Source: Endozoicomonas sp. GU-1 (GTDB lineage: Bacteria > Pseudomonadota > Gammaproteobacteria > Pseudomonadales > Endozoicomonadaceae). From it: DNA of 64,000 nt. The stretch is from NCBI RefSeq assembly GCF_027366395.1, contig NZ_CP114771.1, positions 3,286,001 through 3,350,000 on the forward strand. The letters are read 5' to 3'. Below the pieces are notes generated by a model that was given only the letters and a program-made list of their open reading frames with translations, did no database searches and was not told the DNA's origin. The translations under genes and the position numbers were made by a program. Shown here in pieces: positions 8,727 to 41,512 of this stretch (positions within the stretch are counted from its first letter, which is position 1; each line of letters opens with the position of its first letter).

Positions 8727-9200
8727 ATGAATCAGATTACCCCGGAAGCACTGGAACAGATCATCCGTAAAGTGGTGGCTGAGCAGCTGACCAAACAGGC
8801 CACCGCCGCTGAATTTGACAAACACAGCGACCCTTCCGGTGTTGCCGTGATCAAGGCACCCACCGTCAAGTGCAAACCCTTTGATACCGGCAACCCCGGT
8901 GACAAGGTGTTTATCACCGACATCCTTGATCTGGATGAAAGCCCCCGCCTGGGCTGCGGCATGATGGAAATCCACCAGACCACATTTGACTGGACGCTGG
9001 AATACGACGAAGTGGATTACATCGTAGAAGGCACGTTGAAAATCATTATCGATGGCCGTGAGGTGGTTGGCCATGCCGGTGATGTGATGTTTATTCCCAA
9101 GGGCACAACGATTCAGTTCAGCGCCCCGGACTTCGCCCGCTTCATGTTTGTCGCTTACCCGGCCAACTGGGAAGAGATTGCACGTCAAAAGCAGCAGTAA
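8727..9200 (+). CDS. eutQ: Ethanolamine utilization cupin protein EutQ
   Basis: A 157-residue protein with an N-terminal amphipathic helix (ITPEALEQIIRKVVAEQL, an encapsulation-peptide type) and a C-terminal cupin barrel: DEVDYIVEGTLKIIIDGR, then GDVMFIPKGTTIQFSAP. EutQ of Salmonella has been reported to have acetate kinase activity. Here the usual EutQ N-terminal domain is encoded by the preceding gene, and this protein is correspondingly shorter than enteric EutQ (about 230 residues). The start ATG 8727 lies 34 bp after the previous stop. Confidence 0.9.
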   Translation: MNQITPEALEQIIRKVVAEQLTKQATAAEFDKHSDPSGVAVIKAPTVKCKPFDTGNPGDKVFITDILDLDESPRLGCGMMEIHQTTFDWTLEYDEVDYIVEGTLKIIIDGREVVGHAGDVMFIPKGTTIQFSAPDFARFMFVAYPANWEEIARQKQQ

Positions 9201-9649: not shown

Positions 9650-10078
9650 ATGATGAAAAAGATGATGTTGGTGGGCTCAACCACCGCAGGCAAAACCACG
9701 TTAACTCAGGCTCTCTATGGGCAGGAGCTGAAATACAAAAAAACCCAGGCCATGGAGTACAGTGATTACATACTCGATACGCCGGGTGAGTTTATCGAAA
9801 ACCGCCGTTTTTATGCCGCACTGATGTCATCTTCTGTGGATTATCAGGTCATCGCCGTAGTGCACGATTGTTCAAGAAAACTGAATCAGATCCCTCCGGG
9901 CTTTGCCAGTATGTTCAATCGGGAAGTGATTGGTATCATCACCAAGATCGACAGCGAAAAAGCCGATCCTGAGTTTTCACGAAAAGTACTTAAGGCGGCT
10001 GGCATCAAAACGATATTCGAAATCAGCGCTTACTCAGGCAGCGGCCTGGAGTCACTGAAAACCTGGCTTGAGCATTGA
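9650..10078 (+). CDS. eutP: EutP, Ras-like P-loop NTPase
   Basis: A 142-residue EutP/PduV-family protein. The Walker A motif is GSTTAGKTT, the switch region includes DTPGEF, and the base-recognition motif TKID is present. EutP of Salmonella has been reported as an ATP-dependent acetate kinase, while PduV is implicated in microcompartment positioning. It starts at ATG 9650, 7 bp after the eutS stop, and is the last gene of the cluster. No clear terminator follows before the HiPIP gene 104 bp downstream. Confidence 0.93.
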   Translation: MMKKMMLVGSTTAGKTTLTQALYGQELKYKKTQAMEYSDYILDTPGEFIENRRFYAALMSSSVDYQVIAVVHDCSRKLNQIPPGFASMFNREVIGIITKIDSEKADPEFSRKVLKAAGIKTIFEISAYSGSGLESLKTWLEH

Positions 10079-16854: not shown

Positions 16855-18294
16855 ATGTTCAGACACTTTACCGGTAATCAGTCTGTAATGATGATTGGCC
16901 TCGACTTTGGTTCTACCACCAGCCGTGCCATGATTGCCTCTGCATACCTTGAACGCAATCCGATAACCGAGCGGATGGAGCTGGGCAAACCAGAACTGAT
17001 CTATCGCTCCGACGCCATACTGACACCCTTTGAAGAGGGTGAACTCTGCACGGAGGCCATTAATAACTGTCTTGAACAATGGTTAGCAGAAAGTGGCATT
17101 GATTGTGATCAGCTCTTTTCCGGTGGCGTCATTATCACCGGCCTGGCGGCTGAAAAGCAAAATGCCCGGGCCATTGCCTGCTCCGTGCGGGAGAAAGTGA
17201 ACCAGGCCATTGTTGCCACGGCGGACGATCCTTGTATGGAGTCCTGGCTTGCCTTTATGGGCAACAGCCTTGAGCTTTCCCGGGCAACGCCAGAAGTGCC
17301 CTTTATCAATCTGGACATTGGTGGAGGAACCACCAACCCGGCACTGGGGATAGACGGCAATGTTATAGAATCAGGATGTTACTATATCGGAGCCCGCCAC
17401 TTTCAGTTTGCACCGGGGACCTACCGGTTGCTGGAAGTATCCAACCATGGTCAACAACTTCTGGAACAACTGAACCTGCAGTTATCCATCGGTGACGAGT
17501 GCAGCCAAAACAATATCGACCAGATCGTCCGCTATTATATCCGGGCACTGGAAGCCATGGTCACCGGCGATCATCACTGGTTCGACCAGGGCGATGGGCA
17601 GCAGCTCTGCCAGGTAGCCTTTCAACCGGATGCCCATGCTTTGCGACGGGCTGCGATTACCTTTTCCGGCGGTGTCGGCGAACTCCTTTACCAATACGCA
17701 GCGACGGGTCAACTGCCCGACATTACGGCCTTTGGTGATTTGGGCGTGGACCTGTGCAAAGCCATTGCCGACTCGGAAATCCTATGCCGCAACATTGCCC
17801 ACTACATTCCCGAGTATCAGGGACGGGCAACAGTCTATGGCCTGGCACTGCACAGCGCCGAACTCTCCGGTAACACGCTGTTTATGCCAAAGCCGGAGCA
17901 GCTGCCGGTTAATGACCTGCCCATTGTCGCCCGTCTGAACCTTGATGCCGATGAGAATCGCATCCGGCGGGCCATCGAACTGGCCAGAAAGACCCACAAT
18001 GGCGGCTGTATACGTATTACGCTTAAAGATGATAATTATCCCAGCTTTAAAGAGCTGAAAGGCTTTGGTGAAAAGTTGGCCGAAATGCTGTCCGGCTTTC
18101 CACAGGAACTCCCTCTGCTGTTGCTGGTCCCCAAAGACTTTGGCAAGGTGATCGGTAACTATGCCAGCCACTGGGGGAAGCTGCCCGTGAATCTGATGGC
18201 AGTGGATGAAGTGCCGGATCGCAAAGCCGGGTTTGTCAGCCTCGGTAAAGTGAAAAACTTTGTCATACCCGTTTACTTCTATGGGATGCATTAA
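16855..18294 (+). CDS. EutA paralogue (lyase-reactivating factor), cluster 2
   Basis: A 479-residue actin/Hsp70-fold ATPase related to EutA, which releases damaged cobalamin from ethanolamine ammonia-lyase. Phosphate loop 1 is LDFGSTTS and phosphate loop 2 is [20 protein letters not shown] and FSGGVGELLY also match EutA. It is clearly diverged from the canonical EutA at 28644. It lies upstream of the EutB-EutC fusion, with a lipocalin gene between, so it is probably the dedicated reactivase of that fusion (inference). Start is either ATG 16855 or ATG 16888; neither has a strong ribosome site. Confidence 0.85.
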   Translation: MFRHFTGNQSVMMIGLDFGSTTSRAMIASAYLERNPITERMELGKPELIYRSDAILTPFEEGELCTEAINNCLEQWLAESGIDCDQLFSGGVIITGLAAEKQNARAIACSVREKVNQAIVATADDPCMESWLAFMGNSLELSRATPEVPFINLDIGGGTTNPALGIDGNVIESGCYYIGARHFQFAPGTYRLLEVSNHGQQLLEQLNLQLSIGDECSQNNIDQIVRYYIRALEAMVTGDHHWFDQGDGQQLCQVAFQPDAHALRRAAITFSGGVGELLYQYAATGQLPDITAFGDLGVDLCKAIADSEILCRNIAHYIPEYQGRATVYGLALHSAELSGNTLFMPKPEQLPVNDLPIVARLNLDADENRIRRAIELARKTHNGGCIRITLKDDNYPSFKELKGFGEKLAEMLSGFPQELPLLLLVPKDFGKVIGNYASHWGKLPVNLMAVDEVPDRKAGFVSLGKVKNFVIPVYFYGMH

Positions 18295-18311
18295 AAGAAG
18301 GATGCAACGCT

Positions 18312-18836
18312 TTGAGAACGATTAAAATTCTGTCCCTGATCGCACTGCTTACTGGCTGCACAGGAATCCCGGAAGGCGTTACCCCGGTAAAGCCATTTGA
18401 GGTCAATCGCTATGTGGGCAAGTGGTATGAGATAGCCCGGCTGGATCACCGCTTTGAACGGGGCCTCTCCCACATCACTGCAGAATACTCAGGCAACCCT
18501 GATGGCAGCCTTCGGGTCATCAACTCTGGTTACTCGGTTGAGGCAGGTGAGCGCAAACAGGCACAAGGCACGGCAAAGTTTGTCCGAGAACCGGACGAGG
18601 GGTATCTGAAAGTCTCTTTTTTTGGTCCTTTCTATGGCTCCTACATTATTTTTGAGCTTGATCAGAAGGGCTATGAATACGCCTTTATCTCCGGGAATAA
18701 CAAAGACTATCTCTGGCTGCTGGCCAGAACACCCACCGTCAGTGATCAGGTTAAATCGGACTTTATCAACAAAGCCAAAGCACTTGGGTTTGCTACTGAA
18801 CAATTGATCTTTGTTGACCAGAGCAGTCCTCAATAG
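18312..18836 (+). CDS. blc: Outer-membrane lipocalin Blc
   Basis: A 174-residue lipoprotein with a short signal and lipobox LTGC near residue 16, followed by the lipocalin signature GKWYEIARLDHRFERGL and a barrel with the conserved YLWLLARTP. Blc proteins of E. coli bind lysophospholipids and long-chain fatty acids at the inner face of the outer membrane. The start is TTG 18312 with AAGGA upstream, only 17 bp after the EutA paralogue stop, suggesting one transcript. Its position between an EutA and an EutBC gene is unusual and may link membrane phospholipid turnover to amino-alcohol use (inference). Confidence 0.9.
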   Translation: MRTIKILSLIALLTGCTGIPEGVTPVKPFEVNRYVGKWYEIARLDHRFERGLSHITAEYSGNPDGSLRVINSGYSVEAGERKQAQGTAKFVREPDEGYLKVSFFGPFYGSYIIFELDQKGYEYAFISGNNKDYLWLLARTPTVSDQVKSDFINKAKALGFATEQLIFVDQSSPQ

Positions 18837-18844
18837 CCCGCCAC

Positions 18845-18879
18845 CATTCCGTAAGTAAAGAGTGTATATTTACGGAATG
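18845..18879. promoter_or_regulatory. Inverted repeat between blc and the EutBC fusion
   Basis: CATTCCGTAA and TTACGGAATG form a perfect 10-bp inverted repeat with a 15-base spacer, followed by a C9 run. With no T-run on either side it could be an operator or an RNA hairpin rather than a terminator. Confidence 0.4.
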
Positions 18880-19013
18880 TAATCCCCCCCCCATTTGTAG
18901 TCTTATAGCCTTGCCTGACGTTTTTTGACACAGACGATCACTTAGGTGAATCAATCCCCCGGCAAACAACATTATTTACCATGCCGGATTCGATACCCGC
19001 TGGAGTGTGAGCG

Positions 19014-21437
19014 ATGCCCAAACCAACGATGACCCCACTGGACCAGATTCTGGTGCCGACAGCAAAAACGGATGAAGTTTACCGTTCAAGGGTCATTGGG
19101 CAGAGTTTCAGTTTTACCGGGCTCAAGGCTCTGCTGGGGGCTGCCGGTTTTCATACCAGTGGTGATCAGGTTGCCGGGCTGGGGGCCGAGGATGAAGTCA
19201 GCCGGGAGGCCGCAAGGGCGATACTGTCCGACCTGACGCTGCAGCATATCTACGATCACCCCCTGACCAATGATCGTGGTGAGATTGATGACATCATGCG
19301 GGTCAACTACGACATTGACCTGAGCATTTTCAATGACATGGCCATGATGACCTTGGGGGAGCTCAAGGACTGGATGCAAAAAGCCTCCGGCCCTCAGATC
19401 AAGCGCGCAGGCAGAGGGCTGACAGGAGTGATGGTCGCTGCTGTCACCAAGCTGATGAGCGTACACGACATGGTGTACAACACCCGCAAGATCGAATGCC
19501 CGACACAGGCTCGTACCCACCTTGGTCTCGCGGGTTCTCTATCGACCCGCATTCAACCCAATCACCCGACCGATGACCTGAATGCCATCACTGCGCTGAC
19601 CTGGATGGGTCTGTCCATGGGTAACGGTGATTTGTTGATTGGCCTCAATCCGGCGGATGACACCGTTGATAATATCGGTGCCTGCCTGATCCATCTGGAT
19701 AAAATACGACGGCAGACCGGTGCTCCAACCCAGGTCTGTGTGCTTTCCCATATCCGTACCCAGCTGGCCTGTCTGGAAGCCGGTGCGCCCCTGGACATAC
19801 TCTTCCAGTCCCTGGCGGGGACCGATGCTACGCTGCGGGAAGCTTTTGATGTCAGCGTCGCTTATCTCGACCAGGCCTGGCAGACCATGAAAGAGAAAGG
19901 CGTACTGAACCAGCACCAGTTTATGTACTTTGAAACCGGTCAGGGCAGTGAGGTCAGTTACGGCAAACATGGTGGTATCGATATGTCTACCACAGAGGCC
20001 CTGACTTACGGCTTGTGTCGTCGATATAATCCCTGCATGGTCAACAGTGTCACGGGCTTTATTGGCCCGGAAACCCACAAAGATAGCCTGCAGATTATCT
20101 ATGCCAATTTGCAGGACCTGTTCATGGGCAAAGTGATGGGGCTGCCCATGGGGGTTTCCCCCTGCTTTACCCTGCACGCCGACGCTTCCAGTGAGGGTCA
20201 GGAGATTGCGGTAGAGCTGCTGGCGGTGGCGGGTGCCAACTACTTTATGGACATCTATCTGGGTGTGGACCGCATGCTGGCCTATGCCGACACCAGTGGC
20301 CATGATGACCAGACCATTCGTGAGATCCATAACCTGAAGCCATCCCCCGAGTTCTACCACTGGGCACTGGAAAAAGGGATTTTCAAAGAGTCCCGGGATG
20401 GGCAGATTACCCGTGGGCCCAACTGGGGAAATCCGGCCATGTTTGCGGACTCCCGGCAGGCCTGGAATGATCTGATCAGCCGGATACCCATGTGCTATGG
20501 CACCAGTAATGCCGGCCCGAGAATGGCCAACCATGTCAATCGCAAACTGAAGCAAAACATTGCCGTTGCCAGAATGGCGGCAAAAAGTAAGCTCCGTTTT
20601 GATGCGCTGGAAGAGATCGATTTTCGCCTGATTCGTTCCCGGGCCAATAATATTGAACGACACCATGCTGATTCTGATGCAGGGGCTCATCTTTGCGAAA
20701 AAACCCGCAGTCACCTGCAGCCTGAACATCGTGATGTTCAGATCCTGATTACGGATGGCCTGAGTGCCGAAGCAGTGCACCAGAACATCAATGAACTGCT
20801 GCCGGTATTGGAAGACGGATTACAAAGCCATGGTTACTCACTGGGCCAAACCATGGTGGCACCTCATGGCCGTGTCAGGCTGGCGGAAGATATCGCCAGA
20901 ACGGTGCATGCCAGGCTGGTTATTGTTCTGCTGGGAGAACGTCCCGGTGCGGATGGCAAATCGTCCAAAAGTCTTTCCGGTTATTTGATCTATCGCCTGG
21001 AGGATGAACCAACGCAGAAACTGGCCGCCGAATTCAGCAGCATTGCAGACATCGAATTTGAAAATACCGTAGTGCCTAATATTTATTACGGTGGTATTCC
21101 CCCTATGGAAGCCGGCTCCCTGCTGGCAGAGCGCGCCATGCAGATTCTGGATAACAAGGCAGCAGGTAACCGACTGAATGCGATTCTTGGCAGCCGGATG
21201 GGGCTTTCAGACATCATTCGTGACAGTAAAGTTGAGCCACAAAAAACCGCCAGCACCATCCGGGTTCACGACTTCCTGGGGCAGAAGTCGATCTCTGAAG
21301 CGGATGTAATGGTGTTGATTCACTGGGGTGTTAAAGAGATCCTGCTCAGTCAGAGAACCATTATCTCACCGCTGGCTGGGGATCTGCTGAAACAGGAAGG
21401 CATTAAGCTGCGGTATAATGATAATTTGGCAAAATAA
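19014..21437 (+). CDS. Fused ethanolamine ammonia-lyase-like EutB-EutC
   Basis: An 807-residue single chain. Residues about 20-480 are EutB-like: STRIQPNH (Arg179, Gln181), IGLNPADD (Asn212), REAF (Phe278), FETGQGSE (Glu307), VNSVTGFIGPE (Val346). These match EutB Arg160, Gln162, Asn193, Phe258, Glu287 and Val326. The position of EutB Asp362 is Ser382 (GVSPCFTLH), a substrate-amine contact lost. Residues about 570-735 are EutC-like, with ILITDGLSAEAV, LLGERPG and the PPMEAGS motif. The EutC N-terminal encapsulation helix is missing. Residues about 745-807 carry an extra module (RTIISPLAGDLLKQEGIKL) shared with EutG, an 87-residue protein and the TIGR02536 protein here. It is probably a B12-dependent amino-alcohol lyase with changed specificity. 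The EutA paralogue and blc lie upstream on the same strand. Confidence 0.9.
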   Translation: MPKPTMTPLDQILVPTAKTDEVYRSRVIGQSFSFTGLKALLGAAGFHTSGDQVAGLGAEDEVSREAARAILSDLTLQHIYDHPLTNDRGEIDDIMRVNYDIDLSIFNDMAMMTLGELKDWMQKASGPQIKRAGRGLTGVMVAAVTKLMSVHDMVYNTRKIECPTQARTHLGLAGSLSTRIQPNHPTDDLNAITALTWMGLSMGNGDLLIGLNPADDTVDNIGACLIHLDKIRRQTGAPTQVCVLSHIRTQLACLEAGAPLDILFQSLAGTDATLREAFDVSVAYLDQAWQTMKEKGVLNQHQFMYFETGQGSEVSYGKHGGIDMSTTEALTYGLCRRYNPCMVNSVTGFIGPETHKDSLQIIYANLQDLFMGKVMGLPMGVSPCFTLHADASSEGQEIAVELLAVAGANYFMDIYLGVDRMLAYADTSGHDDQTIREIHNLKPSPEFYHWALEKGIFKESRDGQITRGPNWGNPAMFADSRQAWNDLISRIPMCYGTSNAGPRMANHVNRKLKQNIAVARMAAKSKLRFDALEEIDFRLIRSRANNIERHHADSDAGAHLCEKTRSHLQPEHRDVQILITDGLSAEAVHQNINELLPVLEDGLQSHGYSLGQTMVAPHGRVRLAEDIARTVHARLVIVLLGERPGADGKSSKSLSGYLIYRLEDEPTQKLAAEFSSIADIEFENTVVPNIYYGGIPPMEAGSLLAERAMQILDNKAAGNRLNAILGSRMGLSDIIRDSKVEPQKTASTIRVHDFLGQKSISEADVMVLIHWGVKEILLSQRTIISPLAGDLLKQEGIKLRYNDNLAK

Positions 21438-21447: not shown

Positions 21448-23667
21448 TTAACCACCCGGTACGTTGGCAGGAATTTTCCAGAGTAACGCAATGCCAGCTT
21501 CTGAATGGAAAGGCTCTTGCCGAACATCGTTGCAATAAATCACTAAATGTTCACTATCAGGGCTAAATTTGGCATGTTGAATGAGATAATCCACTATTAT
21601 CTCCTCTTTTTGTTTCCATTTGCCATCATCACCGATGCCCCAGAGTTGCACACGGCCAGACTGGTCTGTGTCTTTCCGGTTTATTTTGTTGCCATAGGTC
21701 AGAAAATGGTTTTCCAGTGCATTGAAATGGGCACCATGGATACCATAGGCACCAGGTTTTGTCACGGCCAGTGTCGTCCACTTGCCATTGTCATCGCACC
21801 CCAGGATGGCAGCAGTGGTGTCCTGGCTAAAGGTATAGGCGAAGCGCCCTGAAGTAGAAAACCGGGCTTCACGAATTTCCAGCAGATGTTTAAACGCCAA
21901 AAGCTCCTGCCATTTGCCCTGGCTGTTGAGACCATGAATTTTTACGGTCCAATCACAACCGCGGGTCAGCACACTGTCCTCCCGAGCGTTGAAGGCAGCA
22001 TAGTCAATCCCCGCCAAGTGGTACACCCTGGCTTTCTCAACCAGGTTACCTTCCTCGTCATCCCCCCAAATGCAGGCGAAATTCGATTTATAGCCATAGC
22101 TCAGAAGAAGATTCTCTGAGGGGCTGAATAGCGCTTCAAGACTGGCGTGATGGACAAAGGTCTGACCTTGATCCAGGCGATCATCAGGACTTTTGCAGTC
22201 CAGGAGTTTAAAAGAGCCACCGCTGTCAAAACGGGCCAGTATTTTACCTCCGGATGGGCTGAATCTGGCATCTGAACAACAACGAATTTCTGCTTTTCCT
22301 TCCCAGACACCATAAGCATTGTAGCCAGAAACTATAACTGTGTTGTCTATATCTTTGGTCAGCGCGTAGTGCCCGGTGGCGTTGAACAAGGCTCTGCAAA
22401 CCAGGTTGGTAATATGTTGGTTGTCGTCGGTTATGATCGTCGCAGGATGACAGATTTGCCCGATCTGTGACCAGTTCCCATCGACATCACAACCCAGAAA
22501 GATGGTCTGGTTACCCCAGGTGAAGATCACAGCGTGTTGCTCATCATCACTCAGCTGGGCACTGGCAATGTTCCCACCGCACTCAAAGACCTTTTTCTCC
22601 TCCAGGCAGTTGCTTTCATCATTACAGGCCCAGATGGTTACTTTCGAGCCCTGGTAAGTCAGGAAATAATCGTTTGTGGCCTTAAGAGGTGGTTGCTGTG
22701 GCCCGGTTTCCTTGTAGTGAAGGATCTCTTTAGGCTGGGTTAGCGGGATCCACCGACCGTTACTGTCCTGGCGCAATACGTTGATTTTGCCGTTCTGTGG
22801 GTCGTAGGACATAATTTTTTTCTGCCCGGGGCTGAAGCCTGCCTCCATCCGTGGATAGTCTTCATCATAGGGGGTAAGCGCAAGCACCACCGCCTCCTCC
22901 CAACGGCCATCGCTGTTCAGCGTACTTACCTTGACATTGCCATCGTAGCTGCTGCTCAGAAGCGTATTTTCAGACCTGTTGAGCTCGTAGCGATAGATAG
23001 AAGCAGAGTCTTCAACATCCCCTTTTTGCAACCAGTTGCCATCCGCACCCTGTTGCCAGATCTTCAGCCTGAAATCGCCCCCATCGTTGCAACCACGTAT
23101 AAGCAGGTTCTTACTCATTGGGCTGAAGCTGGCTTCGATAATATGGTGATCGAAACAGGCCGCCAGTTGAAATTCCAGATAATTTTCCTGGCATTGGAAA
23201 ATGTCAGCCTTCGCTGGATCAATATTGCCCGCATGCGTGTTATTCAGAGCAATATCCTGTAACTGCCCATCATTAACGGCTGCGATGCTAATGAGCTGTT
23301 CATGCTGATGTGATGCATCTCCCGGAACAGCGTCTGAGGATGGCATCATGGAAATCTTGAGCCCGATAATTTCCAGCTTACGCTGACCGATAGCAGTGAT
23401 GATCGACAACTCGGGAGGTGCATTCCGTTTCAACCGTTCCAGGGATTTGAGCTGCTCCGGTTCAGAGACTTTTGCAGCATATTTGTTATAGGCAGCCACT
23501 GATTCAAAAAGGGGTTTCAGGTTATTAAATAACTGCCATTCACCGGTTTCGATTTTGCTTGCGGCTGCCCTGCTCAGCACACGACCAAAAGCAATCACCT
23601 TTGTTTGTGCTTGCGGACTTTTCCAGGCTTGGCAGGTGTTCAGACATTTTTGCGCTATTGGTCCCAT
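21448..23667 (-). CDS. Large WD40-like beta-propeller protein
   Basis: About 739 residues from ATG 23667, chosen because GACCGGAG lies six bases upstream and the same arrangement precedes the paralogue at 27063; an ATG 15 bases earlier is less well placed. After a helical N-terminal 150 residues, the rest is a series of about 40-50-residue blades, recognisable by phrases such as AVIFTWGNQTIFLGCDVDGNWSQ-type and ARFSPSGGK-type segments. No signal peptide or catalytic motif is visible. Such repeats normally bind proteins. The paralogue lies 1 kb away on the same strand, so this is a tandem duplication. A secreted or intracellular host-interaction role is possible but unproven. Confidence 0.75.
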   Translation of the reverse strand: MGPIAQKCLNTCQAWKSPQAQTKVIAFGRVLSRAAASKIETGEWQLFNNLKPLFESVAAYNKYAAKVSEPEQLKSLERLKRNAPPELSIITAIGQRKLEIIGLKISMMPSSDAVPGDASHQHEQLISIAAVNDGQLQDIALNNTHAGNIDPAKADIFQCQENYLEFQLAACFDHHIIEASFSPMSKNLLIRGCNDGGDFRLKIWQQGADGNWLQKGDVEDSASIYRYELNRSENTLLSSSYDGNVKVSTLNSDGRWEEAVVLALTPYDEDYPRMEAGFSPGQKKIMSYDPQNGKINVLRQDSNGRWIPLTQPKEILHYKETGPQQPPLKATNDYFLTYQGSKVTIWACNDESNCLEEKKVFECGGNIASAQLSDDEQHAVIFTWGNQTIFLGCDVDGNWSQIGQICHPATIITDDNQHITNLVCRALFNATGHYALTKDIDNTVIVSGYNAYGVWEGKAEIRCCSDARFSPSGGKILARFDSGGSFKLLDCKSPDDRLDQGQTFVHHASLEALFSPSENLLLSYGYKSNFACIWGDDEEGNLVEKARVYHLAGIDYAAFNAREDSVLTRGCDWTVKIHGLNSQGKWQELLAFKHLLEIREARFSTSGRFAYTFSQDTTAAILGCDDNGKWTTLAVTKPGAYGIHGAHFNALENHFLTYGNKINRKDTDQSGRVQLWGIGDDGKWKQKEEIIVDYLIQHAKFSPDSEHLVIYCNDVRQEPFHSEAGIALLWKIPANVPGG

Positions 23668-23926
23668 GATAACTCCGGTCATATTGGCACAGGGATTAAA
23701 TTTACACCGCCATGAACCGGTAGCATCCTGTGATTGGGTAAATTGTCCACCATTGCTGGTCGGAATATTCAGTATCTGATCAATAGATCAGTCAATTTGG
23801 CAAAAGTTCCTCCCACTGAAAAAATAACGACCAGCTCCTGACATTTTTGGGACTTGCAGTCCGAACCTGAAACAAGGAAATTTTACAATCCGCCAACTTG
23901 TTTTTTTATATTGTTATCTTGTTTGT

Positions 23927-24060
23927 TTTAGTTTCGCCAAAAGGGTACCCCAGCGAAACTAAAGGGGGGTATTTGTCTTGCATACCCCCCGTTTTGGTCT
24001 ATCTTTTCCACGCAAGAAAAAACCCGGCTCAAGCGGAGTATGCAGCTCCTCACCGGGTTT
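23927..24060. repeat. Array of three perfect inverted repeats
   Basis: Three hairpins lie in 134 bp. (1) TTTAGTTTCGC (23927-23937) with GCGAAACTAAA (23953-23963), with the palindrome GGGTACCC in the loop. (2) GGGGGGTAT (23964-23972) with ATACCCCCC (23982-23990). (3) AAACCCGG (24020-24027) with CCGGGTTT (24053-24060), with GGAG/CTCC pairing inside. The array lies directly before a helix-turn-helix gene. It is unlike ordinary terminators and resembles protein-bound or replication-associated DNA structures. Confidence 0.7.
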
Positions 24061-24120
24061 CCCTATTCATACAGCGAACCATTACTCCGTGTGAGTGATA
24101 GCTCAGGGATCAGTATAGAC

Positions 24121-24525
24121 ATGATTTCGTTTGCGTACACAATCGGGATAGGTATCTTGATACGGGTCAAAATTAATACCAGTGGTATGGATAAGCTGAA
24201 CATGACACAGAAGTTTCTGCTGGTCGTTCTGGCGACGTTCGCTAACTCTGAAGGGGAGTGTTGGCCGAGTCAGGGGTTACTGGCTGAGCTTCTTGGCGTG
24301 ACCACTGGCACAATCTGCACAAGCCTGAAAAAACTGGAAGAAGAAAAGTTTATTGAGAGCTTCCAGCGCAAGACAAAACACGGTGGCACTAACACCAAGC
24401 TATATCGGATGCTGTTTGAGCCGTTTGTGTTCAAGCAGGTCAAAGAGCAACATTACAACTGCTTTGGCCAACGGGTCGACGATCCCCGTATGAGTGATAC
24501 GACATGGGCAGATGGGCTGGATTGA
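24121..24525 (+). CDS. Helix-turn-helix protein
   Basis: About 134 residues. The segment from KFLLVVLATFANSEGECWPSQ through LAELLGVTTGTICTSLKKLEEEKFI is a winged helix-turn-helix of the HTH_36 type, found in transcription regulators and in replication proteins of plasmids and phages. The start is uncertain: ATG 24121 has AGGGA 11 bases upstream, ATG 24187 is also possible, and an ATG at 24040 lies inside a hairpin. It sits alone between the two beta-propeller genes, just after the hairpin array, which suggests a small mobile or replicon-derived insertion. Confidence 0.6.
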   Translation: MISFAYTIGIGILIRVKINTSGMDKLNMTQKFLLVVLATFANSEGECWPSQGLLAELLGVTTGTICTSLKKLEEEKFIESFQRKTKHGGTNTKLYRMLFEPFVFKQVKEQHYNCFGQRVDDPRMSDTTWADGLD

Positions 24526-24630
24526 CAACAGAGATCAGCATGGACGATTTGAATAACAACACGATAAAAATTTATTTGCCGTTACCTCTTTGCAAAAAAG
24601 GAAAATATTCAGCCCTCATTCCCAGGGTCT

Positions 24631-24668
24631 GTTGACGTTTCGTTGCGTGCTCGCAACGAAACGTCAAC
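24631..24668. repeat. Perfect 17-bp inverted repeat, 4-base loop
   Basis: GTTGACGTTTCGTTGCG and its exact complement CGCAACGAAACGTCAAC surround TGCT. It lies 12 bp past the stop of the minus-strand propeller pseudogene. There is no T-run on either side. It may act as a transcript-end hairpin or be a relic of an insertion. Confidence 0.75.
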
Positions 24669-24680
24669 TTCAGTAACACC

Positions 24681-27063
24681 TCAAGTGTCAGCTGTTTCCG
24701 CCAGGCTGCCAGGAATTTTCCAGAGTAACACCGTACCGTTTTTTGAACGAAAATATCCCCGTCGATCATCGTTACACTTGATCAGTAAATGATCGCTATC
24801 AGGGCTGAATTTGGCCTTTTTCACGGGGTAATCCAGTTTTAACTGCTCTTTTAATGCCCATTTTCCATCATTATTTACGCCCCATAGTTGCACAAGGCCA
24901 GGCTGGTGTTTGTCTTTTATGTTTATTTTTTTGCCATAGATCAGAAAATGGTCATCCAACCCATTAAACTGGGCACCTTCAATGGAGTAGCCATCAACCA
25001 GGTTTGTCATCGCCTGTTTCATCCATTGGCCATCGTTGTCGCGTCCCAGGATACACGCGGTTCCGTCCAGGCTAATGGTATAGGCAAGATGCCCTGAATC
25101 GGAAAAACAGCATTCGTGAACCTGTCTTTGATGTTTAACCACCAACTGTTCCTGCCATTTGCCCTGGCTGTCCAGGCCCTGAATTTTTACCTCTTGGCCA
25201 ATACCCCTGGTCAGCACACTGTCCTCCTGAGCGTTGAAGGCCGCATAGTAGACCCCCCCCTCGGTGAAATGCCTTTGCTTTCTCAACCAGGTTACCTTCC
25301 TCGTCATACCCCCAAATACGGGCAAAATTCGATTCAACACCGTAGCTCAGAAGAAAATTCTCTGCCGGGCTGAAGATGACTGTTTTACTGCCTCTGTGCT
25401 CACAGGTTTGAACTTTACCCAGCCGACCACCTTTACTGCTGCAGTCCCAGAGTTTAAAGCTTTTATAGGTCCGTCTTATTTGGCCGTCGCAACAATTGTC
25501 GCTGTGCTCATCAGGGGTCTCACCTTGATCCAGCGAGTCATCAGTCTTGTTGCAAGGCAGAGGTTTGTAGAGTTGGGCCAGTAATTTGCGCCCGCAGGCA
25601 CTGAATCGGGCATCTGAACAATCCTGAATTTCAGTTTTTACTTCCCATGAACCGTTTTCGTCATAACCAGAGATAATCGCGATATGATTTGAATCAATAC
25701 TCAGTGCATATTGTCTGGAGGCATTGAAGGCTGCTTTGTGAATAAAGCCTATGATCGGTTCGTTACTGGCCTTTGAATGACTTTTAGGATGACAAACCTC
25801 CCCGATTTGCGACCATTCGCCATCGCCATCACACCCCAGAAAGATGGCCTGGTCCGCACCGAAGATCACAGCATACTGCTCATCATCAGTCATTTGGGCA
25901 CTCCAAATATGCCGACTGCACTCAATGACCTTTTGCACCTCCATGCAGTTGCTGTCGTCATTGAATGCCCAGATGGTCGCTGTTGCACCCCGGTAAGTCA
26001 GTAAATTATGGTCCGTGGCTTTGAAAGACCGCTGCTGTGGCCCACATTGCCGACGGTGACGGATCTCTTGAGTCTGGGTTAGCGGAGTCCACTGACCGTT
26101 GCTATCCGCCGGCAGTACACGGATTTTGCCGGCCCGAAAATTGTAAGTCATAATCTTGTCCTGTCGGGGGCTAAAGCCTGAGATCACCGGCTCATAGTTT
26201 TCGCCTCTACCGCAGGGGCCGTGCTCAAGTACCACCTCTTCCTGCCAAAAGCCATTGCTGTTCAGCTTACTCACCGTGACTATGCCTTCGGAGCTGGTAC
26301 GCAGTAATGTATTTTCCGACCGGTTGAATTCGAAATGAAAGTTATGCTCGCTGAACCTCCCGTGCCGGGACCAGTTGCCATCCGCAGTTTGTTGCCAGAT
26401 GCCCAGAATACGATCGTCCTGACTGTCTGAAGCATCGATAACCAGATGCTTACTCGAAGGGCTAAACCTGGCTGCACTGACATAATGACCGAAGCTGATC
26501 ACCTTTTTGAGTTCCAGATAATTGGTCTGACATTGGAAAATGTCAGCCTTCTTTGTGTCCATTTCCCCCGATTGACTGTTAAGAAGGGCCGCGCCCTGTG
26601 ACTTATTAAAAGGTACTATCGAGTCGCTATTTGCAGTAGTGCCGGAAACCCGTGCTGTCGATGCTTTTTGGGAGGCGGATTCGGTGTCTGAATCGTCCGT
26701 CGATGATTCGGTGTCTGAATAATCCGATGATGATTCAGTGTCTGAGACGTTCGTTGATGGCCTGTTGAGTGAGGCAAATGCATTAACACGCTCTGCTGGA
26801 ACAGCACCTGCTGGCTGTGCCATCGTGGCAATATTCAGCTCAATGCTGCGCTCGTCAATGGCGGTGGTTAGCGTTGCGTCGGGTGGTGAATCCAGTTTCA
26901 GCTGCCCCAGGGACTCGACCAGCTCCAGTTCCGGGATTTCTGAGATTTGTTTATTGTAGGCAGCCACCAATTTATGCTGTGGTGGCTTCAGATCATCAGA
27001 TAACTGCCGTTCATCGGTTTCTATTCTGCCTGCGGCTGCACTGCCTGACGCTATTGGTTGCAT
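24681..27063 (-). pseudogene. Second beta-propeller gene, frameshifted at a G8 tract
   Basis: Paralogue of the gene at 21448-23667. The frame from ATG 27063 (GGAGTTACT before it, as in the paralogue) runs to about 25260, then enters a run of eight G on the coding strand (C at 25253-25260). With eight G the frame passes to a short junk tail ending at 25135. With seven G it would read HRGGVYYAAF and join the intact C-terminal 200 residues, which match the paralogue (GIDYAAFNAREDSVLTRG). The N-terminal part has a Ser/Asp/Glu-rich tract with repeated DTESS units near residues 120-145. The gene may be inactivated, phase-variable through the G tract, or a read error. Confidence 0.75.
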
Positions 27064-27248
27064 AGTAACTCCGGTCATATCGACACAAGGATTGAATGTA
27101 TGCGGCAATGGATTAGTAGTAATCTATGTTGGTTTATGGTGGTTTAGTCGTCCTCTATGAATTGTCTGACCATCCAGTATCTGGGTTATAGATCAGTTAC
27201 TTCGACAAAAGTTCCTGCCCTGAGGGATTTTTATACCGCTCAATTTTA

Positions 27249-27416: not shown

Positions 27417-28526
27417 ATGAGTATTAACGACATTATTCTCTACATAATGGTGGGGTTCATGGTGCTGGGCGCCGTGGATAAAATTCTCGGAAATCGCTGG
27501 GGCTACGGCGAAAAATTCGAGGAAGGCTTTATGGCCATGGGTGCCCTGGCACTGGCCATGATCGGTGTCATCTGTCTGGCTCCGGTACTGAACACAGTGC
27601 TGACACCGGTTCTGACACCCATCTATAACGCCCTGGGTGCCGATCCGGCCATGTTTGCCGGCACACTGCTGGCAAACGACATGGGTGGCTACCCACTGGC
27701 CAAAGAGATGACCACCAATCCGGATATCGCCAACTTCTCCGGCCTTATTCTTGGTGCCATGATGGGCCCGACCATCGTATTCACCATTCCCGTGGCACTG
27801 GGCATTATCGCTAAAGAAGACACCCAGTATCTGGCCCGTGGCGTGCTGATCGGTTTGACCACAGTCCCTGTTGGTGCGCTGGTCGGCGGCCTGATCGCCG
27901 GTCTGGGTATCGGTACCATTGTCGTTAACCTGATTCCGGTTATTATTGTTGCCGCTGCTATCGCCCTTGGCCTGAAGCTGGCACCACAAAAAATGATCGG
28001 CGGTTTTGAAGTCTTCGGTAAGGGTGTGGTTATGCTGATCACTGCCGCCCTGGCTGCCGCAGTGATTGAAGCCCTGACCGGTTTTGTCGTTATTCCGGGT
28101 ATGGCACCATTCTCTGATGGTGTTGCCACCGTTGGTCACATTGCCATGGTTCTGGCAGGTGCCTTCCCTCTGGTGCACTTTATTACCACCCGGTTCAACA
28201 AACCGCTGATGGCCGTTGGCCGTTCCATGGGCATGGGCGAAACCGCGGCTGCTGGTCTGGTAGCGACCCTGGCGAACAGTATCGCCATGTTCAACATCAT
28301 GAAAGATATGGACAACCGCGGTAAAATCATTAACGTTGCCTTCGCCGTCAGCGCCTCTTTCACCCTGGGTGATCACCTGGGTTACACCGCGGCCGTGAAC
28401 AGCGAAATGATCTCTGCCATGATCGTTGGCAAGCTGGTTGGTGGTGTTACTGCGGTGATCATCGCCATTCTGGTGACCAAAAACATGGCTGAGCCACAGG
28501 CTAGCCTGAAAGCGAAACACGCTTAA
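27417..28526 (+). CDS. eutH: Ethanolamine permease EutH
   Basis: A 369-residue inner-membrane protein with about 10 hydrophobic segments, matching EutH over its length: ILYIMVGFMVLGAVDKILGN at the start, GTLLANDMGGYPLA and FTLGDHLGYTAA. EutH lets ethanolamine enter, mainly when the external concentration or pH is low. ATG 27417 has GAGGAAG seven bases upstream. It opens a four-gene cluster with eutA, an adenosyltransferase gene and eutG, which ends in a terminator at 32122. Confidence 0.96.
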   Translation: MSINDIILYIMVGFMVLGAVDKILGNRWGYGEKFEEGFMAMGALALAMIGVICLAPVLNTVLTPVLTPIYNALGADPAMFAGTLLANDMGGYPLAKEMTTNPDIANFSGLILGAMMGPTIVFTIPVALGIIAKEDTQYLARGVLIGLTTVPVGALVGGLIAGLGIGTIVVNLIPVIIVAAAIALGLKLAPQKMIGGFEVFGKGVVMLITAALAAAVIEALTGFVVIPGMAPFSDGVATVGHIAMVLAGAFPLVHFITTRFNKPLMAVGRSMGMGETAAAGLVATLANSIAMFNIMKDMDNRGKIINVAFAVSASFTLGDHLGYTAAVNSEMISAMIVGKLVGGVTAVIIAILVTKNMAEPQASLKAKHA

Positions 28527-28643: not shown

Positions 28644-30098
28644 ATGCGCGAAGAAATTCTCAGTGCCGGCATTGATATTGGCACCTCAACCACCCAGCTG
28701 GTCTTTACCCGGATGTTCCTGGAGAACATCTCTCCGGGTGCCATGATCCCAAAAGTGGAAATCGTTGACCGTCAGGTCATTTACCGCAGCCAGGTTCACT
28801 TCACCCCGCTGCTGTCACCCACCATGATCGATGCCGATAAGGTTCGCCAGCTGATGGAGCAGGAATTCATCAATGCTGGCGTTAATCCGGCGGATATTGA
28901 TACCGGTGCTGTCATCATCACTGGCGAGACAGCCCGCAAGGAAAATGCACGACAGGTTGCTGATGCGTTAAGTCTTCTGGCCGGTGACTTTGTGGTTGCC
29001 ACGGCCGGTCCGGATCTGGAAAGTATCATCTCCGGTAAAGGTGCCGGGGCCGCAAAACAGTCCTTTGAGCAGAACAGTATTGTGGCCAATCTCGATATTG
29101 GCGGTGGCACCACCAATATCGCCACCTACGAGGTGGGTGAAGTGATTGATACCACCTGTCTGGACGTCGGTGGCCGACTGATTAAATTCGAGAAAGGCGG
29201 CACAGAAGTCACTTATATTTCTGAAAAATGGCAGGAAATGACCCGTCGCATGGGCATGCCGGTGAAGGTGGGCGACCAGCTGAATCGACAGCAGATTGAC
29301 CTTATCGTCGATCGAATGGTTGCGATTCTCCAGGAGGTCATGGGCCTCAAACCGGCCACCGATGACCTGGCCTTTCTGATCGGCCGGGGCACCCGTGACC
29401 TGCACCGTAACTACCGCCTGGATCAGATCTGCTTCTCCGGTGGCGTTGCCGTGCATATCTATGATCAGGAGCCTTCCGCCACCGATTATCAATACGGCGA
29501 TTTAGGCGTTCTGCTGGGCAAAGCCATCCGTCGTTCATCCCTGTTCCAGCAGCTTTCTGTTTTTGCTGCGGTGGAGACCATTCGGGCAACGGTGATTGGT
29601 GCCGGCTCCCATGCCACTGATATCAGCGGCAGCACCATCAACTTTTCCCGTGATGTCTTTCCCATTAAAAACGTCCCGGCATTAAGACTGTCACTGAAGG
29701 ATGAGGCCCTGCCCGGGGCGGAACTGGCAAAAACCATTCGGGAAAAGCTGTCATGGTTTGACCTTGAAACCGGTGCGCAACACGTTGCCCTGGCACTGAA
29801 AGGGCATAGAAACCCGGATTTCCAGTACGTTCAGGCGCTGGCTGACATCATCATCCAGGGCATGGACGTGATGATTAAACTACCCCAGCCGCTGATTGTG
29901 ATTGTCGAAGAAGACTTTGGCAAAGTGCTGGGGCAGAGCATTGAGGCAAAGCTGAAACGCACGCTTGAAGACAAGAAGGACGTCATTTGTATCGACAGTA
30001 TCAGTGTCAAAGACGGTGACTATATCGATATTGGCAAACCCCTGGCGGACGGCAAAGTTCTGCCGGTTATCGTGAAAACACTGGTATTTGGTTATTAA
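28644..30098 (+). CDS. eutA: Ethanolamine ammonia-lyase reactivating factor EutA
   Basis: A 484-residue actin-fold ATPase. Phosphate loop 1 is [10 protein letters not shown], phosphate loop 2 is [13 protein letters not shown], and [14 protein letters not shown] is a typical EutA stretch. EutA exchanges inactivated cobalamin in EutBC for fresh adenosylcobalamin using ATP. This copy is the canonical one and serves the EutBC of the main operon; a diverged paralogue lies at 16855. It is 117 bp from eutH, and the adenosyltransferase start follows 10 bp after its stop. Confidence 0.95.
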
Positions 30099-32196: not shown

Positions 32197-33702
32197 ATGA
32201 GCAACGGATTAGGTTCGCTTACCCCATCACAAATCAATCAAATCAATCAATTAGCATCCATTGAAAATTCTGAAGAATATGTATTGGTGGCCCAAAGCAA
32301 TGGTAAGGAAGTTAACTTTACTTCTATAAAACCAAGGGTCAACTCTGAAGCCAATAAGGAAAAACCTGTGGAAGGTTCTGATTTAGCGGTAAAAACCCTG
32401 GGTTTAAAGGATCGAGAAGTCTCACCAGCATTAGCAAAAAGGCTCATAGAGGCCCATAAAAAAGTATCACCGCCTGATGTAATCTTCGTTGACCGGAAAG
32501 ATGTTCGCCTCCTTATGGATCACGTCGATGATAGCGTTAGTACTCAGCCGCCGGGTGAGGATGCAACATCCAGTCTTGATAGCGTTAGAGATCGAAGAAG
32601 TTCTGCCAATTCACTGCATTCTGGCTGGGGGTCAACCACCAGTCTCGACAGTGGCTACAACAGTGTTTATGGCAGTACGGAATCCCTGTACGATGATGTA
32701 GCTTTGCCCCAGGATCAAACAACTTCGCCTTTATCAGAAAAAGTTACTGAATTAATTAACAAGGAAAACTATACAGGCGCACATTTGCAAATGCGTGATG
32801 AAAGTTTGGCGGCCATAAAAGGTAAACATATTACCAATGGACGCTGGAGTAGATTTGGCTTTAGCGATAAGTCAGCAGCACATGTACCTTTGCCGAAAAA
32901 AACAGCCTTAACAATTGATGGCAATCATATTCCCGCCAATAAAATCAAGTTGACCAATGCCAAGTATGTCGCCATTCAGGCACCTCGAGCTGAAGCACAA
33001 ATGTCTGGAGGTGATATCTGGCGAGCAGTCCTTGACTCGGAGTGCAGTGTAATTTGCGATCTGACCAGAGAAAAAGAAAAGTTCCAGTTAAACAAAGGAG
33101 GACCTATTGCTTCTTATTACCCAACCGGAGAAAAACTCAATGACAACGGCAAAGTCAATGGCAAGGTCGATGGCAAAGTCGGCAACAAAGTCGACCGTGA
33201 AATCGTCTTTGATAATGGGATTAAAGTGAGATACCAGTCAAAACAACAAAAAGCTGGGTATTCAAAAATAAGATATGAGGTGACTGATCCCCTTAGTGGC
33301 GAAACCCGCCTTATACGAAGATATCATTATACTGGCTGGCCGGATCACGGAGTTCCCAATGAAACAAACGGTCAAGACTCTCTGCTCAAGTTTGTAGAAG
33401 CACTGCGCACTCATCAGACCGGGAAAGACTATTCAGGCAAAACAATGGTGCATTGCATGGCAGGCGTTGGCAGAACCGGAACGCTGATTGTGTTAAATGA
33501 AATCTACCGGGACATACTCTCCGGAAAATATCAAAATAAAAAGGAACTGGATCAGGCAGTATTCAAGACTATTCAACAAGGCAGAAAAGACCGGGGACCC
33601 GCCTTTGTTCAAGCAGTGGATCAGATCAAATTAATCATGAATACCGTTCATACATGGTGGGATAAGCGAGACGGGGGAGAGAACATTATTCCCGTGATCT
33701 AG
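32197..33702 (+). CDS. Eukaryote-like protein tyrosine phosphatase
   Basis: A 501-residue protein. The C-terminal catalytic domain (about 180-490) has the PTP signature HCMAGVGRTG with nucleophile Cys420 and Arg426, the WPD loop WPDHG with general acid Asp383, and a Q-loop-like region ending VQAVDQIK. A YopH/SptP-type tyrosine phosphatase is the best match in kind. The N-terminal 175 residues lack a signal peptide and contain a Ser/Gly/Tyr-rich stretch with the repeated unit GSTxSL (about 145-165). This architecture suits a translocated effector acting on host phosphotyrosine proteins (inference). Base composition is more AT-rich than the eut genes on either side. The 3' end overlaps the convergent BtuF-like gene by 17 bp. 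Confidence 0.9.
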   Translation: MSNGLGSLTPSQINQINQLASIENSEEYVLVAQSNGKEVNFTSIKPRVNSEANKEKPVEGSDLAVKTLGLKDREVSPALAKRLIEAHKKVSPPDVIFVDRKDVRLLMDHVDDSVSTQPPGEDATSSLDSVRDRRSSANSLHSGWGSTTSLDSGYNSVYGSTESLYDDVALPQDQTTSPLSEKVTELINKENYTGAHLQMRDESLAAIKGKHITNGRWSRFGFSDKSAAHVPLPKKTALTIDGNHIPANKIKLTNAKYVAIQAPRAEAQMSGGDIWRAVLDSECSVICDLTREKEKFQLNKGGPIASYYPTGEKLNDNGKVNGKVDGKVGNKVDREIVFDNGIKVRYQSKQQKAGYSKIRYEVTDPLSGETRLIRRYHYTGWPDHGVPNETNGQDSLLKFVEALRTHQTGKDYSGKTMVHCMAGVGRTGTLIVLNEIYRDILSGKYQNKKELDQAVFKTIQQGRKDRGPAFVQAVDQIKLIMNTVHTWWDKRDGGENIIPVI

Positions 33703-36646: not shown

Positions 36647-37393
36647 TTACAGCAATTCCAACTCATCCTTCATGCGCAAAAAGTCTTTTGCCAGCGGGGT
36701 AATCAGGGCTCTTTCCGGCAGCCTGATTTTCCGATACCCCTGCTCATAACAGGCCCGCAGATCTTTCTCGCCAACCACCCGTCGCTCAAGGTTAAAAACC
36801 TCTGTATCGACGGTCTTTGGTCCGGCTACTGCTTTGCGTTCAGGAGCATTGACCCGGTATACCACTTCATTAACCGAAGTGGCCTCTGGCTTCTCTGATG
36901 AGGCACCGCCAGTCAGGGCAGCAGGCAGATTATCCAGTGTCACGACATTCATGCCAAAAGAACACAGGGTCGCTTCCTTATCCTGGAAAACCTGATAAAA
37001 GGCCGGGTTGGCCGTATCACGAAAACGACGGTAGGCAATACCCTCTGCCAGAATGTGAACCGTTTTACCCAGTAACAGGCTCTCAACAATCACACAGCCT
37101 TCGCTGCCTCGCTCCAGCCCGATCGCCAGGGCTGACAACAGGCTGTTGGACAGGCTGGCGAGAATAATGTGGTCGTACTTGGCTGGTTCCGGACGCTCAT
37201 CATTCTGTAGATCGACAGTAAACGACAATGCGTAGTCATTACCCAGGGCCTGCTCCAGCTGTTGCCGGTTATGGCAGTCCCCGACCACCAGCACCGACGG
37301 ATTCGGTTTCCCGGTTTCTGCTTCTCCCTGCAGAGCCAGCAGCTGTTCCAGCACCCGTCTGGCAATCAATTCAACCAGTGCATCGGTATTCAT
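36647..37393 (-). CDS. TIGR02536-type ethanolamine utilization protein
   Basis: A 248-residue protein. Residues 3-22 form an amphipathic helix (LVELIARRVLEQLL) of the encapsulation type. The central part (LVVGDCHNRQQLEQAL, DHIILASLSNSLLSALAIGL, KTVHILAEGIAYRRF) has a flavoprotein-like alpha/beta character, as in the small eut protein of Firmicutes operons. The last 50 residues (LRACYEQGYRKIRL, ERALITPLAKDFL) match the module shared with EutG, the 87-residue protein and the EutB-EutC fusion. Reaction unknown. It follows eutJ by 16 bp. Confidence 0.75.
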   Translation of the reverse strand: MNTDALVELIARRVLEQLLALQGEAETGKPNPSVLVVGDCHNRQQLEQALGNDYALSFTVDLQNDERPEPAKYDHIILASLSNSLLSALAIGLERGSEGCVIVESLLLGKTVHILAEGIAYRRFRDTANPAFYQVFQDKEATLCSFGMNVVTLDNLPAALTGGASSEKPEATSVNEVVYRVNAPERKAVAGPKTVDTEVFNLERRVVGEKDLRACYEQGYRKIRLPERALITPLAKDFLRMKDELELL

Positions 37394-40972: not shown

Positions 40973-40978
40973 CTTACG

Positions 40979-41512
40979 TTACCTTCTGTGATATTCGATC
41001 ATGGCCTGAATCAGCGCGTCTTTCTTGGCAAACTTGATGTCCTGTTTGCTCATTGGGAAATCCGGCAGCTGTCGTGCCATGTTTCTTAACTCTACTGTTC
41101 TGTGAGCCTTCAGTTCATCCAGCGTCATTTGCCCATTAAGAGCCGCAATGGATGAAGACTCAGGATCTGTCGCTACCGCTTCTGCTGGCACCACAGCCTC
41201 CGGCCGGGCTGCCGCAGCGGGAGCAGGTTCTCTGATCGTGCTGCTGAGCAGCACATCCAGCTCCATGGCCGGTCTGGCAATCACATGGGTGGATACCACT
41301 GTGCCAAGGCGATCGGCAGCCATGGTTCCTGCTTCTACCGCTGCTTTCACGGCACCAACGTCACCACGGATGATGACGGTCACCAGACCACCACCGGAGT
41401 TGTGTTTTGCAACCAGGCTGACATTGGCGGTTTTCAGACAGACATCTGCCGCCTCTACCGCCGGGAGGAAGCCAACGGTTTCAATAAAGCCTGCCGCCTC
41501 TTGTGTTCTCAT
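40979..41512 (-). CDS. eutK: EutK/PduK-type shell protein with C-terminal nucleic-acid-binding-like domain
   Basis: A 177-residue protein. Residues 5-90 are a BMC domain ([40 protein letters not shown]). A Pro/Ala linker (95-125) leads to a basic C-terminal segment (LDELKAHRTVELRNMARQLP ... KKDALIQAMIEYHRR), which resembles SAP or Rho-N folds rather than the winged helix of E. coli EutK. It may bind nucleic acid near the shell or be a cytosolic-side adaptor (inference). It follows eutL by 21 bp. Confidence 0.85.
   Translation of the reverse strand: MRTQEAAGFIETVGFLPAVEAADVCLKTANVSLVAKHNSGGGLVTVIIRGDVGAVKAAVEAGTMAADRLGTVVSTHVIARPAMELDVLLSSTIREPAPAAAARPEAVVPAEAVATDPESSSIAALNGQMTLDELKAHRTVELRNMARQLPDFPMSKQDIKFAKKDALIQAMIEYHRR

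Follow-up and report, generated by a model that had tools for sequence, protein, structure and literature searches.

Why should a bacterium that encodes a complete ethanolamine ammonia-lyase, EutBC, carry a second one that is fused into a single chain and altered in its active site? The question is raised by a stretch of 64,000 nucleotides from Endozoicomonas sp. GU-1 (contig NZ_CP114771.1, positions 3,286,001 to 3,350,000; hereafter the window), in which an EutA-like gene (EutA2), a lipocalin gene and a gene for an 807-residue fusion of EutB and EutC follow one another within an island of ethanolamine utilization (Eut) genes. A preliminary description, made from the sequence alone, had taken these three open reading frames for one dedicated system, and Pfam searches confirmed both their positions and their identities. 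As judged by its sequence, the fusion belongs to a separate subfamily, which we term AP-type, with Ala or Ser in place of Asp362 of Escherichia coli EutB and nearly always with Pro363 and Thr334 (E. coli EutB numbering). Most likely, this subfamily has a substrate other than ethanolamine, and N-methylated ethanolamines are the best-supported guess; we infer both the activity and the substrate, and for the fused branch the proposal is carried over from the shared signature only.

The fused lyase and its active site

Pfam and Foldseek identify the fusion as the TIM-barrel large subunit EutB and the small subunit EutC in one chain. Its AlphaFold2 (AF2) model has a predicted local distance difference test score (pLDDT) of 87 and a predicted template modelling score (pTM) of 0.85, and the target-normalised template modelling (TM) scores from Foldseek are 0.94 for the EutB half on 3abo_A and 0.77 on 3abo_B. 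Alignment to the 3ABO chain places Ser382 of the fusion at Asp362 (MGVSPC against MGCDCC), and R160, Q162, N193, F258, E287, F329, M392 and L402 are retained. We take R160, Q162, N193 and E287, all four present in the fusion, to have substrate-site roles in EutB, and Asp362 to be the reported contact to the substrate amine. The preliminary description had read the site in the same way; when the alignment was checked for an acidic residue at 362, none was restored and the Ser stayed.

Identity to the solved EutB chains is 36-38%. The fusion shares with EutBC of E. coli (3ABO) and Listeria (2QEZ) both folds, all checked substrate residues but one, and an EutA partner, but it differs from them in being a single chain, in the replacement of D362 by S/A together with P363 and T334, and in its dedicated EutA2. 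It scores under the curated NCBIfam cut-offs for EutB (PRK15067, 449 versus 554 bits) and EutC (PRK05465, 116 versus 230 bits); the canonical EutB of the window reaches 692 bits on PRK15067.

The fusion gene is intact and evolves under strong purifying selection, with a ratio of non-synonymous to synonymous substitution (dN/dS) of about 0.05 (0.046 and 0.051 against two relatives, over about 806 codons). A search of 56 relatives located it in nine genomes of the family Endozoicomonadaceae (G000, G003, G007, G008, G011, G018, G022, G023 and G024). G023 and G024 each contain the gene twice; an internal stop interrupts one G023 copy, and one copy lies at a contig end. The sister species G009 holds remnants only. 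Because the fusion is present in nine family genomes, dN/dS is about 0.05 and Pro363 is linked to the change at 362, the altered site is not a chance replacement.

In 10 of the 11 family loci (the window, L032-L035 and L037-L041; L036 has a remnant) EutA2 sits a short way upstream of the fusion, and it also precedes the fusion in 10 of 13 loci outside the family (not in L044, L045 and L051), which supports the proposal of a dedicated EutA paralogue. EutA2 matches the EutA profile and is linked to the lyase, with scores under the NCBIfam equivalog cut-offs. The lipocalin fared differently. It stands between EutA2 and the fusion in three of the 11 family loci (the window, L032 and L033) and at none of the 13 fused loci outside the family, and it is retained in G009 despite the decay of the fusion, so that it was ruled out as a component of the system. 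At this G009 locus (L042, about 4.2-10.6 kb) the fusion is in pieces, EutA2 gives no match and the lipocalin reading frame is intact.

Reach and signature of the AP-type subfamily

Fused AP-type genes come from Pseudomonadota and at least four further phyla; the unfused ones are mostly from Bacillota. Tracing homologues of the fusion in databases, as the preliminary description had proposed, yielded 13 fused loci outside the family among the matches listed. One, found by tblastn, lies on a Methylocystis plasmid (L044), and its product is filed as ethanolamine ammonia-lyase. The other 12 (L045-L056, 51-57% identity) are among the matches listed in a scan of the genome_contigs set, which covers the best 80 of 596 loci and is not a census; the next rows have 36-39% identity. 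Their hosts are Hyphomicrobium, Planctomycetota, Acetobacter, Pseudomonas, Rhodocyclaceae, Polyangium, Aquabacter, Xanthobacter, Bdellovibrionales, Desulfosediminicola, Vibrio and Oceanobacter. The fusion is rare, since the sole AP-type gene found among 385 genomes of the class of L052 was that of L052 itself; the other EutB genes read there have Asp362.

All aligned fusions carry G-[MIV]-[AS]-P at positions 360-363. The same signature occurs in ten unfused EutB genes (L057, L058, L066, L071-L074, L081, L103 and L120), most of them from Bacillota, with one from Desulfoluna and one from Propionibacteriaceae. Over 180 distinct sequences, Pro363 is present in 53 of 53 AP-type members and in 0 of 127 with Asp362 (D-type), and Thr334 in 52 of 53 and 0 of 127, respectively; R160, Q162, N193, E287, F329 and L402 are invariant in both types. 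When 25 sequences were added, Thr334 was present in all 13 new AP-type members, and the sole exception to Pro363 was L346 (Gln363). Residue 362 is thus distributed over 205 distinct sequences as A or S in 66, D in 138 and G in one. A third state, Gly362 (GMGCVYT), is seen in a EutB gene of L338 (10776-12155, genome G933) that is clustered with a D-type EutB and EutA.

By parsimony, two changes between AP and D are needed on a tree of the 205 sequences built without the signature columns; an earlier, smaller tree had given a cleaner split. With two changes, and with a support of only 0.07 for the basal node of the main D group, strict monophyly of the AP-type was not found.

Other lineages likewise join EutB and EutC in one chain, as judged by the length and position of the reading frame, namely proteins of about 703 residues with the motif GADAC (L059, L215-L217) and proteins of 680-900 residues with GLDxCST (L161, L226-L238 and L240). 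They differ from the AP-type fusion in that they keep Asp362; fusion and loss of Asp362 are therefore independent, and fusion was ruled out as the cause of the altered site. The GLDxCST lineage is very divergent (about 30-34% identity to E. coli EutB) and accounts for roughly half the EutB matches of the Desulfobacterota sample.

AP-type enzymes mostly coexist with a second EutB. Any EutB match was found in 28 of 385, 26 of 297 and 36 of 398 sampled genomes (centres included), and of the 59 AP genomes found, 48 also have a non-AP EutB (42 of 48 in the first samples, six of 11 in the later one; G113 was excluded, its AP sequence being only a 66-residue piece at a contig end). Of the 48 second copies, 44 were found to have D at residue 362, and those of G099, G103, G109 and G122 were classed as non-AP from their 62-63% identity to the AP query; in G061 the second copy belongs to the divergent fused D kind. 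The Endozoicomonas genome itself, a single contig of 6.09 Mb, has one fusion and one canonical EutB, which is 96% identical to the EutB of L088. A full canonical EutBC with its EutA1 is indeed present in the window, as had been stated, and this frequent coexistence agrees with the earlier view that the fusion is not redundant: comparison across genomes makes this the likelier case for the AP-type as a whole.

Gene neighbourhoods and the candidate substrate

In many anaerobes, AP genes lie in a microcompartment operon of their own, near MttB-family methylamine methyltransferases. An MttB-family gene was found within 10 kb of 13 of 52 AP loci, versus 0 of 77 D loci (13 of 49 versus 0 of 74 without loci fetched twice). 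A second sample, drawn later, gave six of 13 AP loci and one of 11 others, a cluster in which both types occur; in L242, MttB lies just past 10 kb. The operon of Desulfosporosinus relatives reads EutQ-EutB(AP)-EutC-EutA-PocR-like-MtgC-like-kinase-MttB-MtgC-like-MtgA-like. Downstream of the AP genes of Desulfosporosinus sp. HMP52 (L073) are encoded a PocR-like regulator, MtgC-like corrinoid proteins, an APH-family kinase, an MttB-family methyltransferase whose closest PDB match is glycine betaine methyltransferase, and a methyltetrahydrofolate:corrinoid methyltransferase; these labels are family names, most of them given under the NCBIfam equivalog cut-offs. A block of this type is also present at 10 of the 14 further AP loci fetched from that class (L245, L246, L248-L255). 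Among the remaining four, L247 has PylB/PylC-like and MttB genes, L256 and L257 have only an MtgA-like gene, and L264 is truncated. In the same lineage, D loci (L162, L258-L262) carry EutW/EutV-like genes, so labelled for their resemblance to two L057 proteins that had been named by eye, and no MttB.

The AP operon of Sporomusa malonica (L163) is divergent from an MttB-family gene (5907-7433, minus strand) with an in-frame TAG at codon 332, which adjoins PylB-, PylC- and PylD-like genes (Pyl names given by eye). The same TAG splits the MttB genes near the AP operons of L247, L336, L337, L343 and L346, and an in-frame TAG is typical of pyrrolysine-type trimethylamine methyltransferase. MttB is located upstream of the AP genes in L335, L337 and L343. 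The L343 block comprises a member of the choline/ethanolamine kinase family (PF01633, E 6e-26), an APH kinase, an EamA transporter, MttB, a HAD hydrolase and AP-type EutBCA; L337 is arranged in the same way, choline-kinase-family gene included, and an SSF symporter lies nearby in L336.

Because of these neighbours of the unfused relatives, the substrate of the AP-type points to N-methylated ethanolamines rather than to 2-aminopropanol or serinol. A different amino-alcohol, as the preliminary description had suggested, is thereby kept as the likeliest reading, and the two compounds it had named beside ethanolamine are less favoured. We tentatively propose that the fusion is an adenosylcobalamin-dependent lyase that cleaves N-methylated ethanolamines to acetaldehyde and a methylated amine, which we regard as a good possibility, short of probable. 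N,N-dimethyl- or N-methylethanolamine would be the first candidates and choline the second. The radical chemistry would be that of EutBC, with R160, Q162, N193 and E287 kept, and the smaller residue at 362 would leave room for N-methyl groups. EutA2 might serve to swap damaged cobalamin out of the fusion, the C-terminal domain of the fusion could anchor the enzyme to the Eut microcompartment, and the acetaldehyde would join the same pathway of EutE, PduL and iron-type alcohol dehydrogenase (Fe-ADH) as acetaldehyde derived from ethanolamine. A wider version, possible but held with more reserve, is that AP-type EutBC in general is a cobalamin lyase for N-methylated ethanolamines, perhaps also for choline, and provides a second way, tolerant of oxygen, to turn choline-family compounds into methylated amines. 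This route might then operate in marine symbiont and methylotroph lineages as well, overlooked there as its members pass for ethanolamine ammonia-lyase.

A number of observations weigh against N-methylated ethanolamines. The MttB linkage spans few independent arrangements, with strong phylogenetic dependence in the Desulfosporosinus set, and one genome of that lineage has 22 MttB matches, which makes single adjacencies weak. No MttB-family gene was detected in G000 and 17 other Endozoicomonadaceae tested (18 genomes), nor in seven of the 10 first-found unfused-AP genomes (G068-G070, G072, G074, G076 and G077). Fused loci of at least 8 kb have no MttB, MtgC, MtgA, PylB or PylC within 10 kb, and among 12 fused-AP genomes outside the family MttB-family genes occur only in G057 and, weakly, in G065. 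As a further methylamine marker GmaS (TIGR03105) was uninformative, 0 of the 56 relatives being over the cut-off. The only recurrent clue next to fused genes outside the family is a TRAP transporter, at two of the 13 loci (L054 and L055), and such transporters usually serve organic anions. The AP genes of Lysinibacillus (L057, L058) are flanked by a histidine kinase and a response regulator taken for EutW/EutV, and the AP operons of L340-L342 (G1029 is among these genomes) have EutW-EutV-EutH-like genes and no MttB; an amino-acid permease is a neighbour in L340. No D-type was found in 11 of the 59 AP genomes (G057, G060, G064, G091, G117, G123, G998, G905, G1029, G895 and G1123), some of which are draft or metagenome assemblies. 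Lastly, the fused AP enzymes have 19 private positions and Leu or Met in place of Asn367, and CutC, the known choline lyase, co-occurs with the AP-type, as detailed below.

Part of this evidence would suit AP-type enzymes that are ordinary ethanolamine ammonia-lyases with another solution for binding the amine, the second copy being kept for regulation, affinity or a second microcompartment. Operons with EutW/EutV/EutH-like genes, the 11 genomes without a D-type, the retention of all other substrate residues and the place of the fusion in a Eut island all fit this explanation. We nevertheless consider it unlikely, though a serious competitor, as the signature falls into two clean states, a D-type coexists in 48 of 59 genomes, MttB is linked to the AP-type, and Asp362 is reported to contact the substrate amine.

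A separate substrate for the fused branch, whether another amino-alcohol or some charged analogue, unlike that of the unfused AP-type, is also rather unlikely. The private changes of this branch, for example V327T beside V326 and the change at Asn367, would be in keeping with such a divergence, as would the TRAP transporter of L054 and L055 and the absence of all the methylamine genes tested near fused loci. Against it, the signature at 334, 362 and 363 is common to the unfused branch, and the Endozoicomonadaceae fusion lies within a Eut island that handles acetaldehyde, for which a substrate yielding acetaldehyde is the simplest choice.

The comparison with CutC bears on choline itself. CutC is a glycyl radical enzyme without cobalamin that converts choline to acetaldehyde and an amine inside a microcompartment; it is unrelated in sequence to the AP-type fusion, which has the EutBC fold and lacks the glycyl radical enzyme fold (Pfam, Foldseek). 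CutC is over the cut-off in 19 of 48 AP genomes versus 10 of 62 control genomes hand-picked from earlier searches. Within the family, three of nine fusion-bearing genomes have CutC, versus 0 of 23 that lack the fusion (G009, G014 and G019 left out), and within Bacillota it is present in 14 of 19 AP genomes of the Sporomusa and Desulfosporosinus groups versus eight of 25 controls. The idea that the AP-type simply replaces CutC is unsupported, since both co-occur. A 71-kb region of Desulfoluna G075 (contig C4, 284-355 kb) contains two AP EutB, two CutC and one D-type EutB genes. One niche could thus be shared, with ethanolamine cleaved by the D-type, choline by CutC and partly methylated ethanolamines by the AP-type.

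If the AP-type were a genuine choline trimethylamine-lyase, the B12-dependent counterpart of CutC, this would agree with the TAG-split MttB genes and with the choline-kinase-family genes of L337 and L343, but such an activity is improbable for the AP-type, given the accompanying CutC and, on chemical grounds, a quaternary nitrogen without the lone pair for the migration proposed for this fold. That the fusion is a dead or decaying copy, to which the lost Asp362, the G009 remnants and the G023 stop might point, is highly improbable in view of its low dN/dS, the invariance of the other substrate residues and the conserved pairing with EutA2.

The tail domain and the Eut island

The fusion has a third, C-terminal domain that the preliminary description had overlooked. 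In the AF2 model, a low-confidence linker (residues 733-746) leads to a small α/β unit (residues 748-803) with a pLDDT of 61 for residues 751-760 and of 78-89 for residues 761-800; modelled alone, the tail has a mean pLDDT of 80. Its match to the C-terminus of TIGR02536 amounts to 23.8 bits, under the curated cut-off of 152.6. Alignment with hhalign, using small sets chosen by eye for a shared motif, gave probabilities of 97.7 for TIGR02536 C-termini and 96.7 for EutT/EutQ-like N-termini. The tail thus aligns to terminal domains of PduM/TIGR02536, EutQ and EutT proteins, but in the fusion the domain is the C-terminal end of a lyase. No convincing sequence relative was found in the PDB (best E 0.71), and a fold match to DUF1893 is weak (E 0.004). 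Among the aligned fusions the tail is limited to Endozoicomonadaceae, the 13 from outside the family ending before it. The fusion is without a free EutC N-terminus, where the microcompartment signal of EutC would lie. In reported pull-downs with Salmonella proteins, deletion of EutQ residues 1-100 abolished binding of the shell protein EutM in vitro (PMC4827028). Since the tail resembles the PduM, EutQ and EutT domains, and EutQ 1-100 is needed for EutM binding, attachment of the fusion to the Eut microcompartment is plausible by analogy. The differently localised reaction that had been offered as an alternative to a different substrate is not supported, given this resemblance and the position of the gene inside a Eut microcompartment island.

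This island is loose, with unrelated genes interspersed, and its Eut names were partly given by eye (Table 1). EutQ/EutP-like genes at 8.6-10.1 kb are followed by EutA2, lipocalin and fusion at 16.9-21.4 kb, by genes for EutH, EutA1, an adenosyltransferase and Fe-ADH at 27.4-32.1 kb, and by shell, PduS-like, EutJ-like, PduL, EutE, EutC and EutB genes at 34.6-44.5 kb.

Table 1. Positions of the fusion, its partners and other Eut features in the window
Feature	Position	Strand	Evidence and remarks
EutQ-like gene	8574-9200	+	Translation, named by eye; upstream part of island
EutP-like gene	9650-10078	+	Translation, named by eye; upstream part of island
EutA2 (EutA-like), 479 aa	16855-18294	+	Pfam EutA, E 2e-66; presumed dedicated reactivating factor of the fusion
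Blc-type lipocalin lipoprotein	18312-18836	+	Pfam Lipocalin_2, E 3.7e-38; PDB Blc, E 6.6e-48; not a conserved part
AP-type EutB-EutC fusion, 807 aa	19014-21437	+	Pfam EutB, E 8.6e-138 (residues 32-460); EutC, E 3.2e-38 (residues 482-721)
Fusion tail domain (about residues 748-804)	21255-21425	+	NCBIfam TIGR02536, E 2.9e-5; hhalign
EutH permease	27417-28526	+	Pfam EutH, E 4.6e-146
EutA1 of the canonical enzyme	28644-30098	+	Pfam EutA, E 7.9e-187
TIGR02536 (PduM-like) protein	36647-37393	-	NCBIfam, E 2.3e-22, 79.7 bits, under curated cut-off of 152.6; C-terminus similar to fusion tail (hhalign)
EutE-type aldehyde dehydrogenase and two BMC shell proteins	39518-42187	-	Pfam Aldedh, BMC
Canonical EutC	42213-43121	-	Translation; named by position and by matching EutC partners at other loci
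Canonical D-type EutB (comparison enzyme)	43134-44498	-	Alignment

Between the fusion and EutH, the minus strand encodes large repeat proteins (21448-27108). The first gives weak WD40 matches and has paralogues in L042, and the second is apparently split into overlapping frames (24681-25340 and 25135-27108). A gene on the plus strand of the island (32197-33702) encodes a protein tyrosine phosphatase domain (Pfam E 3.6e-29, residues 242-484), preceded by a long N-terminal stretch with no Pfam match.

The literature searched, thin on subscription journals, did not pair ethanolamine ammonia-lyase with Asp362, Endozoicomonas or dimethylethanolamine, nor did it combine N-methylethanolamine, ammonia-lyase and cobalamin. 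If the proposed activity is correct, the AP-type would offer a natural test of the role of Asp362 in ethanolamine ammonia-lyase, and the fusion a case of a lyase joined to a microcompartment-type domain. Under the same condition, a textbook B12 enzyme family would comprise two functional classes that annotation has merged and that two or three residues suffice to separate. The second class would add a cobalamin-dependent route from choline-derived compounds to methylated amines, the precursors of methane and trimethylamine.

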